Positions 58,236-64,000 of a stretch of 64,000 nt of DNA are shown here, piece by piece. The notes under the pieces are model-generated. The model worked only from the letters and a program-made list of their open reading frames with translations, ran no database searches and had not been told where the DNA came from. The position numbers and the translations under genes are program-made. How positions within the stretch are numbered: the stretch's first letter is position 1; each line of letters opens with the position of its first letter. The stretch lies in contig SHVL01000001.1 of NCBI GenBank assembly GCA_009694305.1, positions 62,001 to 126,000 on the forward strand, written 5' to 3'. This DNA is from Thermoleophilia bacterium (GTDB lineage Bacteria > Actinomycetota > Thermoleophilia > Gaiellales > Gaiellaceae).

Positions 58236-58897
58236 CAGGGGGTCACTCCTGCCGCGACCGTCCCACCGGAGGACGAGTCGGTTGCGGTGGGCGCACCGGA
58301 GGTTCCGGGCGGCGTAGCCGGTGGGGCGCTGAAGGCGTAGGCGTTCAACAGGACGTTCGCCCTGACGAGGGGAAACTTCGCCGCCCCTTCGGGGGCGCTG
58401 AGATCGATCTTCGAGACCGAGTAGAGACGACCTCGGGCGTCGAGCCGGCCTCCGCGAACGGAGACGAGCAGGCGCAGTTCGCCGAGGAACCGGGAGACGT
58501 CTGCGAAGCGCCCCTGGAGGCTCACGGCGAGCGGCTGCTTTGTATAGCCGATTCCCGCAACCTCGGGCGCCGGCGTCACGGAGTGGAACGCAAGGTCATT
58601 GCTTCCGGCAAGGCGATTCAGGTCGAGCAGGATCCCAGGCATGTCCGTCTCGTTCGGGAGCGCCTTCGTCAGCCGGAAGAGGTCGGCAGGCCGAACGGTG
58701 ACTGCGACGGAGGGGTTCGCCACTGCCGCGCGACGCGCGAGAAGCTCGGCCCTGGCGATGGCCACCTGCGAGCTCAGGTCGGTCGCCTTCGACCGCTCGG
58801 GAGCGATGACAAGCAGCCAGCAGGCGACGAGCACGAGCAAGCCACCGGCTACAGCCGCCCCGAGCTTGCGCTTCGGGGAAGAGAGCAATGAGCTCAC
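58235..58897 (-). CDS. pilO: PilO-like type IV pilus assembly protein
   Basis: N-terminal TM, coiled-coil, then PGILLDLNRLAGSNDLAFHSVTPAPEV...SLQGRFADVSRFLGELRLLVSVRGGRL, typical of PilO. Confidence 0.75.
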   Translation of the reverse strand: MSSLLSSPKRKLGAAVAGGLLVLVACWLLVIAPERSKATDLSSQVAIARAELLARRAAVANPSVAVTVRPADLFRLTKALPNETDMPGILLDLNRLAGSNDLAFHSVTPAPEVAGIGYTKQPLAVSLQGRFADVSRFLGELRLLVSVRGGRLDARGRLYSVSKIDLSAPEGAAKFPLVRANVLLNAYAFSAPPATPPGTSGAPTATDSSSGGTVAAGVTP

Positions 58898-61626
58898 GAG
58901 GCACCTCCAGCGTTCTTCAGGTCGGCGACGATGACGAAGTGGACGACGTCCTTCGAGCCGACAACGGTCTGTTCGCTGCTGACGAGCGTGACTCTCGCGA
59001 GCGAGGGGACCGTCGCGAGTCGAGCGAGGAGGCGAGCAACGTCCGGCTGCTCGTACGTGAACCCGTCGATGTTGACGGCGGCGGGCGCGGCAGCCGGCTG
59101 GCCGGGGGGAACCGGCACCACTGCTCCCTCTGCGAGACCGACTTGCTCCGGCTGACTGAGGGAGAGTGTCTGGAGCCAGACGTTGGCCGGAAGCACAAGG
59201 GAGAGGTCACGAAAGACAGCGTCCCAGGCGACACGGCCACCGAGAACGCTCGCCACGGCCGTGGCACGTACCACCTCGTCGCCGACGACATTCGCCGCGA
59301 TGCGAGGGGTTGCCGGTGCGGGCAGGCTCGCGACCTCGGCCGCAACAGCGGTGAGCTGGGCCTGGCTGTCCGACGCAGATCCATGCGCGCCGAGATAGAG
59401 AAGGCCGAGTGCGACGAGGGGAACCGCAACAGCGGCGGGGGCAGCGATCGAGAGCGAGAGCGATCGCCGGCTCCTCGTCTTGACGACATCGCCAGGCGTC
59501 AGATTGACGCCCCGGGTTGCGAGGTCTTCGACCGCGAGCCCGATCGAGACGGCCATCGAGCCGATCACGGCTTCGATCGCGGGATCGAATGCGGCCGAGT
59601 GAGTCACGCGGGCGAGTGGATCGCCGATCTCTACATCGACTCCGATCATCTGGCGCAGCTCCGCATCGAGTCCCTCGAGGCCCGATGCGGCACCCGTGAC
59701 GACGATGCCGCCGATGCCCAGTGACTCGGCCTGGGTCTGGTAGAACTGCAGCGAGCTGACGATCTCCCGTGCGAACGGCGTCAGCCGCAGCCGGATCGCG
59801 TCTACTGCGCGCGAGCGCGTCTCGTCGTCGAGTGATTCGAGCCTGAGACCGGGGCCCGACAGGGACATGTGTTGGAGGATCGTTGCCGCTTCCATCCGGT
59901 CGATCTCGAGCGATGTCGCGATCGCCTCCTCGAGCGTCTCTCCACCCCAGTCAAACACGCGGGTGAACTGGCAGGCACCGCCACCGGCGACGAGCAGCGT
60001 CGAAGACTCGCGTCCGATCTCGACGACGATCGTGGCTATGTCATCGACCGCACCGGCAGCGACGGGCCCCGGGCTGACGAATGTGCGCAGGAGAGCGAGA
60101 GCCTCCAGGTCAATGCCCTTGAGCTTCAGGCCCGCGGTGGCAGCTACCCGGGCGTAGGGCTCGACGTGAGCGCGCGGTGCGACGACGAGCAGCACCCGCC
60201 GAACCATCTCGCCTTCCTCGTTCGGTCGCTCTCCGAGCACCCGGTAGTCGAGCACCGACTCCTGGGCCGCGAGCGGCAGCAGTTCGTGGGCCTTGAATCT
60301 GACCGCGTTGCCGAACTGCACCTCATCCTGGATCCCGACGGTGTCGAAGGTGCGAACGCCGATGCGATTGCTCGACACGCCGATGCGCACGCTTTTCCGC
60401 GGCAGCTTCTCGTCGTCGAAGAATGAGCTGAGCGCCAGCGCGAGCGCGTCGGGGTCGCGAACTTCGCCGCCCACGACGATCCCGGGGGCCAGGGGCCGAC
60501 GGGCGAGCTGAACGAGCTCGTGGCCCGTCTGCGTCTCGTTGACGACGGCGGCGGCAATCTGCGACGCGTCGATCTCGAGGCCAACCACCTGGCGCACCTT
60601 CTGACGGCGGGAAGGACGACTCGTGTTTCTCGGCTCACGGCCGGGCCTTCGAAGCCTCGAGAGCCCGGACGACCCGGACGGCCCGGACGGCTCGGACGGT
60701 GCATCCTCGACGGCATTTCCGGGCTCGCCGGCAACCCCGCCGTCCACCGCGGTGCCGGCGTCGATCGGAGAGGGGCCGGGCAGAACGATGTCGCCCAACT
60801 GCTCGTCACGTGTCCAGCCGCTGCCGGCAGCCGACGGCACCAGGGGGGCCTCCGAACCGGGACTCGGTTGCTCCACGGGCGCCGAGGCAACCGGGCTCTC
60901 GCCTGTTGGCTCGGATGCGTCAGAAGCGTCGGGAGCTGTCTCGGCCACTCGCGCAGGAGCCGCTTGCTTGCGTCGGAAGCTGATCTCGCGGCGGTAGAAC
61001 GGGAGAGAATCGGTATCAGATGCATCCCCGACCTCACCGGTGGCCTCGTCGAGGTCGGTGGCGACAGCCTGCTCGGACTCGAGAGCGGGGAAAAGCGCTT
61101 CTGCCTCCACAGGGGTTCCAACCTCCGCCTGGATTTCGGCCACGCCGTCATCGGCCGGTGCCTCCAGGATGACGGGTTCGTCCACGGGGGCTTCGTGCGC
61201 GGAGGACAGCACGTTCTCCTCTGCAGCACGCACGCGATCTCCGGACTCGGAGACAACCCGGTCGGATGCGACAAAATCAGGGGTGGTCTCCTGGGGGGTG
61301 CGCCACGACGCGGGCGCATCGCCTGCCGGCTGGTCCGGAGTCACGCTGGCGCGGGGAGATCCCTCGTGCCGCTTGAACGACAACTCCGTGCTGAAGCGCA
61401 ACTCGGGCCGGTCGTTCTCGGGCGGCGCGAAGCCGATCGGGCGGCGACCCGAGCCGCCGGTTGCGGCAGGAGCATCGACATGGGTCGCGCCGTATGCGAT
61501 CGAGGAAGACTCCCGACCGGGGCTCTGCGAGTCGCCCGTGCGCGACGGATCGAATGCAGAGGATGGCGTCGTCCCGTCGCTCTGGCCGGGGTCGGGGATT
61601 GCGTTCCGTGGATGCAAGAAGGACAT
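58894..61626 (-). CDS. PilM-PilN fusion protein with long disordered N-terminal region
   Basis: VRQVVGLEIDASQIAAAVVNETQTGHELVQLARRPLAPG...IVVEIGRESSTLLVAGGGACQFTRVFDWGG (PilM), then TM LSLSIAAPAAVAVPLVALGLLYLG and VWLQTLSLSQPEQ...VNIDGFTYEQPDVARLLARLATVPSLARVTLVSSEQ (PilN). Confidence 0.85.
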   Translation of the reverse strand: MSFLHPRNAIPDPGQSDGTTPSSAFDPSRTGDSQSPGRESSSIAYGATHVDAPAATGGSGRRPIGFAPPENDRPELRFSTELSFKRHEGSPRASVTPDQPAGDAPASWRTPQETTPDFVASDRVVSESGDRVRAAEENVLSSAHEAPVDEPVILEAPADDGVAEIQAEVGTPVEAEALFPALESEQAVATDLDEATGEVGDASDTDSLPFYRREISFRRKQAAPARVAETAPDASDASEPTGESPVASAPVEQPSPGSEAPLVPSAAGSGWTRDEQLGDIVLPGPSPIDAGTAVDGGVAGEPGNAVEDAPSEPSGPSGSSGLSRLRRPGREPRNTSRPSRRQKVRQVVGLEIDASQIAAAVVNETQTGHELVQLARRPLAPGIVVGGEVRDPDALALALSSFFDDEKLPRKSVRIGVSSNRIGVRTFDTVGIQDEVQFGNAVRFKAHELLPLAAQESVLDYRVLGERPNEEGEMVRRVLLVVAPRAHVEPYARVAATAGLKLKGIDLEALALLRTFVSPGPVAAGAVDDIATIVVEIGRESSTLLVAGGGACQFTRVFDWGGETLEEAIATSLEIDRMEAATILQHMSLSGPGLRLESLDDETRSRAVDAIRLRLTPFAREIVSSLQFYQTQAESLGIGGIVVTGAASGLEGLDAELRQMIGVDVEIGDPLARVTHSAAFDPAIEAVIGSMAVSIGLAVEDLATRGVNLTPGDVVKTRSRRSLSLSIAAPAAVAVPLVALGLLYLGAHGSASDSQAQLTAVAAEVASLPAPATPRIAANVVGDEVVRATAVASVLGGRVAWDAVFRDLSLVLPANVWLQTLSLSQPEQVGLAEGAVVPVPPGQPAAAPAAVNIDGFTYEQPDVARLLARLATVPSLARVTLVSSEQTVVGSKDVVHFVIVADLKNAGGAS

Positions 61627-61632
61627 TGGCGG

Positions 61633-62811
61633 TTAGCTCCCGGCTACCCGCAGCGCCGCGCCGAACGTCGGCGAGGCAGCAGGTGTACCGTCGTTGAACA
61701 TGACAGGGACAGACACTCCGGCGCGCTCGAGTGCCGATACAAGGGCTTCCGGGCGGCCCGAACAGCTGATCGCCTCGTCGAAGGAGATGACATTCTTCTG
61801 CACCAGTTCCGTGAGCGACTGCTCCATGGTCTGCATGCCACGGCGTGTGCCGGTCTGCATGTAGGAGTAGACCTGCTCGATCTTCCCCTGGCGGATCAGG
61901 TTCCTGATTGCGTCGTCGAGGAACAGAATCTCGAGAGCCACGGCTCGCCCCCGCCCGTCGAGGGTCGGGAGCAGGGTCTGGGTGACGATCCCCTGAAGCG
62001 TGTTGGCGAGCTGCATCCGCACCTGCGCCTGCTGCTCTGCCGGGAACACGTCGATGATCCGGTCGATCGTGCTCGGCGCGCTCTGGGTGTGCAGTGTCCC
62101 GAAGACCAGGTGGCCCGTCTCGGCCGCGGTAAGTGCAGTCGAGATCGTCTCGAGGTCACGCATTTCGCCGAGAAGGATCACGTCGGGGTCCTGACGTAGC
62201 GCACCGCGAAGCGCATCTGCGAAGCCGGTTGCGTCCTCGCCGATCTCGCGCTGGTTGACGATGCACCCCTTATGGGAGTGCAGGAACTCGATCGGGTCCT
62301 CGATCGTGATGATGTGATCCGTCCGTGTCCTGTTGATCTCGTCCACGAGCGATGCCAGCGTGGTGGACTTGCCCGAGCCCGTCGGGCCGGTGACGAGAAC
62401 GAGGCCGCGGGGCTTGTTGGTGAGGTCGAGCAAGCTCGAGGGGAGGCCGAGCTCGTCGAGCGACTTGATGTCAGTGGGAATCGTGCGGAAGGCTGCGGCC
62501 AGGCTCCCGCGCTGGAAGTACGCGTTGACCCGGAAACGTGCGAGGCCGCGGATGCCATAGGCAAAGTCCAGCTGGCGCTTCAACTCCAGGTTCTTCTGCT
62601 GCTCGGTTGTAGTGATGCGGTAGACGAGCTGGCGGATGAGATCGGGGTCGAGGAGCGGAAACTCGCCGAGCAGCTCGATGTGGCCGCGCCGGCGAATCGC
62701 CGGGAGGGAGCCCGAGGTCAGGTGCAGGTCGGAGGCACCGAGCGCAACCGTTCGCTCGAGTAGGGCATCAACGGAAACCGAGGTGCCTGATGTGTGCTCC
62801 GACTGTTCCAC
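61633..62811 (-). CDS. pilT: Type IV pilus retraction ATPase PilT family
   Basis: VTGPTGSGKSTTLASLVDEIN Walker A, IEDPIEF Asp box, GEMRDLETISTALTAAETGHLVFGTLHTQSAPSTIDRIIDVFP; GTG start. Confidence 0.93.
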   Translation of the reverse strand: MEQSEHTSGTSVSVDALLERTVALGASDLHLTSGSLPAIRRRGHIELLGEFPLLDPDLIRQLVYRITTTEQQKNLELKRQLDFAYGIRGLARFRVNAYFQRGSLAAAFRTIPTDIKSLDELGLPSSLLDLTNKPRGLVLVTGPTGSGKSTTLASLVDEINRTRTDHIITIEDPIEFLHSHKGCIVNQREIGEDATGFADALRGALRQDPDVILLGEMRDLETISTALTAAETGHLVFGTLHTQSAPSTIDRIIDVFPAEQQAQVRMQLANTLQGIVTQTLLPTLDGRGRAVALEILFLDDAIRNLIRQGKIEQVYSYMQTGTRRGMQTMEQSLTELVQKNVISFDEAISCSGRPEALVSALERAGVSVPVMFNDGTPAASPTFGAALRVAGS

Positions 62812-62818
62812 GTTGCTT

Positions 62819-62846
62819 CTATCGGCAGGGCCCGCGTGAGCCTTGA
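62819..62846 (-). promoter_or_regulatory. Sigma-28/WhiG-type promoter upstream of pilT operon
   Basis: Minus strand TCAA-N16-GCCGATAG, -10 ends 7 nt before the GTG start. Confidence 0.65.
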
Positions 62847-63287: not shown

Positions 63288-63674
63288 ATGTCTTCGTTCA
63301 TCTCCCGGTTGCAGGCACGGGTCTCCAAGGAGGAGTCGGGCTTCACGCTCATCGAGCTCCTCATCGTGCTCGTCATCATCGGCATTCTGCTCGCGATTGC
63401 AGTGCCGTCGTATCTCGGCTTCAAGGATCGCGCCAACAAGACTGCGGCCCAGGCCAACGTCCGCTCGGCCGTACCGACCATCGAGACCTACTTCGCTGAC
63501 AACAACACCTACGTCGGAATGACAACGACAAACCTGGCCGCCATTGATGCCGGTATCCAGATCACGGTCGTCTCGGGTAGCCTCTCGACGTACTGCGTCA
63601 GCAACACGCAGGGTGGCTTCGCCTACTACAAGAATGGCCCTTCTGGGGCGATCGGCACCACCGTCTGCACCTAG
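63288..63674 (+). CDS. pilA: Type IV prepilin (major pilin-like, PilA)
   Basis: ESGFTLIELLIVLVIIGILLAIAVPSYLGFKDRA prepilin peptidase site and N-terminal helix; two Cys near C-terminus; AAGGAG RBS. Confidence 0.94.
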   Translation: MSSFISRLQARVSKEESGFTLIELLIVLVIIGILLAIAVPSYLGFKDRANKTAAQANVRSAVPTIETYFADNNTYVGMTTTNLAAIDAGIQITVVSGSLSTYCVSNTQGGFAYYKNGPSGAIGTTVCT

Positions 63675-63696
63675 GTCATACCCATCCGGTACGACG

Positions 63697-63730
63697 GAGA
63701 GGGCGCGGAGCGATCCGCGCCCTCTCTTTC
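63697..63730 (+). terminator. Intrinsic terminator downstream of pilA
   Basis: gagagggcgcgga-gcga-tccgcgccctctc followed by TTTCGTT. Confidence 0.88.
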
Positions 63731-63809: not shown

Positions 63810-63837
63810 TAAAGGCCACGGCCCGTTCTGCCGATAG
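63810..63837 (+). promoter_or_regulatory. Sigma-28/WhiG-type promoter upstream of the terminal partial CDS
   Basis: TAAA-N16-GCCGATAG, -10 ends 7 nt before ATG. Confidence 0.7.
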
Positions 63838-63844
63838 GAACACC

Positions 63845-64000
63845 ATGAAAACATTCACCATCACATCCCAGCGCATTCCACGACCCGTTCTGATCGGCAT
63901 CGCAGTGCTGTTTGCCGCCTTTGCCGCACTGATGATCGTCCGCGTCGTCCATCCCGGCGGGCCGTCCTCGACAGCTGCAGCCCCGCCCGCACCGGCGCCG
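63845..64000 (+). CDS. Membrane-anchored protein, 3' truncated by window edge (possibly T4P-associated)
   Basis: MKTFTITSQRIPRPVLIGIAVLFAAFAALMIVRVVHPGGPSSTAAAPPAPAP, open to the window end. Confidence 0.7.
   Translation, partial: MKTFTITSQRIPRPVLIGIAVLFAAFAALMIVRVVHPGGPSSTAAAPPAPAP

Follow-up and report, generated by a model that had tools for sequence, protein, structure and literature searches.

The window, by which we mean the whole stretch of 64,000 nt analysed here, corresponds to C36:62001-126000 of a 2.47-Mb, 98-contig assembly (genome G000), which from its RsiG and WhiG content alone probably belongs to the class Thermoleophilia. The window contains a type IV pilus locus in which pilT and an apparent pilM-pilN fusion lie on the minus strand and a pilA-like pilin gene on the plus strand, followed by a gene that starts at 63845 and runs off the right edge (Table 1). 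The apparent pilM-pilN fusion has a long N-terminal extension. Extending the sequence past 64000, a check proposed in the earlier note, completes the open reading frame at 63845. Its product combines one N-terminal transmembrane helix with a thioredoxin-fold domain (structure model with mean pLDDT 80.6, about 86-97 within the fold domain) and matches thioredoxins with an E-value of 2.5e-5. The protein sequence contains no cysteine and the product is thus unlikely to be a redox thioredoxin; we infer that, next to the pilin, it may act structurally or as a chaperone.

Table 1. Coordinates of features in the window (numbered from its first letter) and of small-RNA candidate copies on other contigs of the same genome
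Feature	Position	Strand	Details
pilM-pilN fused ORF	58894..61626	-	single 910-aa ORF carrying PilM_2 and PilN domains
pilT	61633..62811	-	392 aa from predicted leaderless GTG 62811; TIGR01420 473.9 bits
WhiG-type promoter of pilT	62819..62846	-	TCAAG-N15-GCCGATAG; at least 10/11 at 30/40 pilT/pilT2 loci
pilA-like type IV pilin	63288..63674	+	N_methyl PF07963; TIGR02532
pilA intrinsic terminator	63696..63727	+	14-bp stem; separates pilA from the 63845 transcript
WhiG/sigma-28-type promoter	63810..63837	+	-35 TAAAG, 15-nt spacer, -10 GCCGATAG; conservation 19/22
63845 gene, first 52 codons	63845..64000	+	178 aa in full, to 64381 outside the window
Candidate small RNA, copy 1 (L269)	C42:4634-4722		
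Candidate small RNA, copy 2 (L298)	C74:2744-2838		imperfect -10

The 38 nt quoted earlier for 63810-63847 match the window sequence exactly, and the sigma-28-type geometry described as common to this site and the pilT promoter, TNAA-N16-GCCGATA followed by 7 nt to the start codon, is found at both. The 63810 promoter reads TAAA-N16-GCCGATAG, agrees in 11 of 11 scored positions and places the ATG at 63845 exactly 7 nt past its -10 octamer. On the minus strand, positions 62846-62809 upstream of pilT read TCAAGGCTCACGCGGGCCCTGCCGATAG-AAGCAAC-GTG, again with a 7-nt gap from the -10 octamer to the GTG (62811), and with TCAA in place of TAAA. The 63810 promoter fits the WhiG/FliA requirement for a -35 TAAA and a -10 GCCGATAA with 15-16 nt between them, departing from the consensus in the final -10 base, which is G where GCCGATAA has A. 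The terminator of pilA lies upstream of this promoter, as the earlier note had stated, and its position, together with the gene's own conserved promoter, supports the proposal that the downstream gene is a transcription unit of its own and a member of the regulon. On reading, no promoter of the conserved WhiG type was noticed upstream of pilA in the window. A loose pattern with up to two mismatches and a spacer one base too long shows no excess in the window (6 matches vs 9.0 expected from shuffles), and the case must therefore come from the genome and its relatives. The two window copies from which a real regulon motif had been argued are by themselves insufficient as proof; the motif itself is upheld by the genome-wide and comparative data.

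In the genome, the strict pattern TNAA-N14-18-GCCGATA occurs at 11 sites, compared to 2 for the reversed control pattern. Six of the 11 are CTGCCGATA, found before pilT, the 63845 gene, pilB (C36:129605), a group-2 sigma factor gene (C56) and a gene for a LuxR-type protein (C66), and at C42:4607, with no evident gene behind it. The other five, which have the form TGAA...GCCGATA (C16, C20, C45, C55 and C90), were judged on reading to be probable background. A second pilT (pilT2) is preceded by a further promoter, TAAAG...GCCGATGA, so that four WhiG-type promoters are found in this pilus locus (pilT, the 63845 gene, pilB and pilT2). The promoters of the group-2 sigma factor gene (C56:31509-30617, L020) and of the gene for the 111-aa LuxR-type protein (C66:12353, minus strand, L021) are each separated from the start codon by exactly 7 nt, and the presence of the motif on these two genes suggests a regulatory cascade. 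The predicted regulon is wider than first noted, extending to pilB, pilC, pilD, pilT2, the group-2 sigma factor, the LuxR-type regulator and a candidate small RNA.

Across 81 genomes, the strict motif gives 144 matches against 11 for controls. At PilT loci chosen by protein, the motif lies upstream in most family members, and divergent motif copies adjoin pilA at the same loci. Promoters scoring at least 10/11, a level reached by about 0.3% of random 155-nt windows, precede 30/40 pilT/pilT2, 14/15 pilB, 8/9 pilC and 12/16 pilD genes and 18/18 orthologues of the 63845 gene, in a collection in which some loci had been gathered through the motif itself. For this reason a second test was run with orthologues found by protein. 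A profile of the 63845 protein, run against 81 genomes, retrieves 22 near-full-length orthologues within the family (including the profile's own rows, some of them collected via the motif); 19 carry a promoter of at least 10/11, all 22 one of at least 9/11, and in 17 the gap from the -10 octamer to the start codon is exactly 7 nt. Motif bias is avoided or reduced in this test, in the PilT loci chosen by protein and in the promoter-free small-RNA model described below. Loss of the motif in related genomes, which the earlier note had regarded as decisive against it, is thus not what we find. Chance resemblance in a GC-rich genome, with which the lack of enrichment of the relaxed pattern in the window alone would agree, is hardly credible and is rejected by the 19/22 orthologues and the 144 vs 11 matches.

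The motif also follows the presence of WhiG, with a density of 0.81 per Mb in WhiG-positive genomes vs 0.16 in the WhiG-less genus g39 (p=1e-4), a correlation that is partly phylogenetic because g39 also lacks a close pilT orthologue. Genomes of g39 (G053, G056, G059, G062, G065-G073) match pilT weakly at best and carry the motif at background counts. Searches in this genus gave no RsiG match and no WhiG above the cut-off; judged from these sequences, the whole WhiG/RsiG/motif/pilT module is lost in g39.

The genome under study encodes one WhiG above the curated cut-off (C60:6738-7412), which reaches 360.6 bits with the WhiG equivalog NF004935 (cut-off 343), also exceeds the cut-off of TIGR02479, and has its best PDB matches in 6pfj/6pfv (E about 1e-85), with a match to the WhiG chain 7lq4 as well. 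The presence of whiG, the retention of the motif before orthologous pilus genes and its rarity in the WhiG-less genus support the WhiG-type assignment first made from the window. We find it very unlikely that a different sigma factor reads the motif, such as the group-2 sigma factor on C56, since the motif fits the flagellar/WhiG consensus TAAA...GCCGATAA and not a housekeeping -10 of the TATAAT type, and stays at background density in g39. The gene for this group-2 sigma factor is itself under the motif and could belong to the same circuit, but its motif is seen in this genome only. No match to FHIPEP/FlhA was found in G000, and FlhA is absent from nearly all family genomes; the export apparatus by which we would recognise a flagellar regulon is therefore missing from the search results. 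It is highly probable that the 63810 site is a WhiG promoter, one of a set at the pilus locus, that gives rise to a separate, probably leaderless mRNA and is probably subject to gating through RsiG. A congener, G006, has FlhA, a second FliA/WhiG-type sigma factor and an RsiG-like frame with two matches near one another (C1:402095-402490, 406574-408517, 426872-427549), possibly a separate flagellar sigma/anti-sigma pair.

Among sites with an open reading frame within 40 nt, the commonest distance from promoter to start codon is 7 nt (34 sites). Transcription from sigma-28 promoters starts about 7 nt past the -10 element, and this spacing therefore predicts leaderless mRNAs, suggesting a leaderless start for both the 63845 gene and pilT. 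A start codon 7 nt after GCCGATAN would thus serve as a predictive promoter rule for leaderless transcripts. The distance differs among genes, from 7 to 25 nt, and leaders of 9-25 nt, often containing CTCGTTCGAGGGA or a variant, occur at pilB and, in several genera, at pilC or pilT. We further note a conserved CTCGTTCGAGGGA-like hairpin leader behind the WhiG promoters of pilB (for example L122, L100, L047 and L107) and of some pilT and pilC genes, which possibly overlaps the ribosome-binding site.

Several motif sites that lack a gene precede a conserved intergenic element of about 90 nt, which consists of a core GGGACTGACGGCAATCATCC and a GC-rich hairpin, followed in most copies by a pyrimidine-rich tail. 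The terminator stem of the element shows compensatory changes, and each of four copies tested folds better than all 200 of its shuffles (z -3.6 to -5.1). A covariance model built without the promoter sequence recovers the element from about 33 of the 49 genomes in the family; outside the family its matches are weak (E 0.02 or worse). Among 30 hits outside the model-building set, 25 have a WhiG-type promoter of at least 9/11 immediately upstream, compared to 1.5% of control windows (binomial p about 3e-41, an overstated value as related genomes are counted as independent). This association with a model free of promoter sequence points to the element as probably a WhiG-dependent small RNA, and probably one not previously described. 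Rfam gives nothing over the gathering score and three sub-threshold matches, all on one locus. Predicted base pairing between the small RNA and pilA, pilT or the 63845 gene does not stand out (rank fractions from 0.06 to 0.54 relative to windows of the same 64 kb), and no target emerged.

The element also bears on whether the conserved string could be a transcription-factor operator or a translation-start signal instead of a promoter, as its strong conservation and fixed distance to many start codons might indicate. A translation-start signal is rejected by the occurrence of the motif before a non-coding element. Two blocks separated by 15-17 nt have the geometry of a promoter and the distance to the start codon is not constant among genes, so that the operator or translation-start reading as a whole is highly improbable and the WhiG promoter remains our preferred explanation.

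We infer WhiG recognition, a leaderless start and c-di-GMP gating from sequence, in the following scheme. RNA polymerase carrying WhiG would read 63810-63837 as a promoter and transcribe the gene beside pilA, which encodes the membrane-anchored thioredoxin-fold protein, into an mRNA of its own that probably lacks a leader. The activity of WhiG would probably be gated by the c-di-GMP-dependent anti-sigma factor RsiG, such that at high c-di-GMP WhiG would be held, the pilus regulon would fall silent and pili would be off. Control of type IV pili by a WhiG/RsiG/c-di-GMP switch is already known from Rubrobacter radiotolerans, where transcription starts have been mapped (PMC8325347). As in Rubrobacter, WhiG and RsiG occur together with flagellar-consensus promoters within the cluster of type IV pilus genes, and a flagellar-clade sigma factor is put to non-flagellar use. 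The present system differs in its lineage, in the twin-motif RsiG of the window's genus (g1) and in the many start codons 7 nt past the -10 element, and has as additional targets the thioredoxin-fold gene beside pilA, the group-2 sigma factor, the LuxR-type protein and the candidate small RNA. Unlike in Rubrobacter, we saw no motif site of this genome in front of a diguanylate cyclase or phosphodiesterase gene, whereas in genus g28 an HD_5 response regulator carries the promoter (one of two similar genes scanned). With these results, control of type IV pili by WhiG would reach past Rubrobacter into a large actinobacterial family represented here mostly by fragmented assemblies.

Two further systems offer partial parallels. 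In Actinoplanes missouriensis, as cited in PMC8325347, FliA-type sigma factors drive both flagella and type IV pili, likewise an actinobacterial use of flagellar-clade sigma factors for type IV pilus genes; as far as that citation goes, Actinoplanes has flagella and no RsiG, whereas this genome has RsiG and no FlhA. Sigma-28-dependent small RNAs are described in Escherichia coli and Campylobacter (PMC10578931, PMC11187230), which similarly tie regulon small RNAs to a flagellar-type sigma factor. Compared to what the abstracts of these two papers describe, the present element stands alone between genes, has a conserved core of its own, belongs to a mostly flagellum-less family and has no Rfam match.

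The RsiG homologue of this genome (C56:23449-23934, L171) carries the motif E(X)3S(X)2R(X)3H(X)3D and, tested with E(X)3S(X)2R(X)3[QH](X)3D, has two intact motifs; like the twin-motif RsiG of Streptomyces, it has two c-di-GMP motifs in one chain. In all seven g1 genomes RsiG can be aligned to the two-motif protein from end to end, and both motifs are intact in six; in G005, E replaces the final D of the second motif. The match spans one motif in the class outgroups and in the other family genera with RsiG. Unlike those of Streptomyces RsiG, the g1 halves cluster in a tree of halves with those RsiG proteins of their own family that have one motif (97/81), and are separated from the N and C halves that other members of the phylum contribute. 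The AU test (67 columns) rejects neither a single common duplication (p=0.20) nor a clade of the g1 halves alone (p=0.16), so that independence is argued from the tree grouping (97/81) and the distribution, according to which the g1 twin motif apparently arose by a duplication separate from the Streptomyces one. We lean towards a WhiG pilus regulon that includes a new small RNA and, in g1, a twin-motif RsiG that would have arisen independently of Streptomyces. The outcome is a candidate small RNA and what would be a second, natural occurrence of the RsiG duplication, against which the published view that twin-motif RsiG had a single origin can be tested directly. We also note that RsiG has two motifs in three genera of the sister family f3 (L201, L202 and L203; G050, G064 and G074), and that its C halves there group with the C halves of other phylum members.
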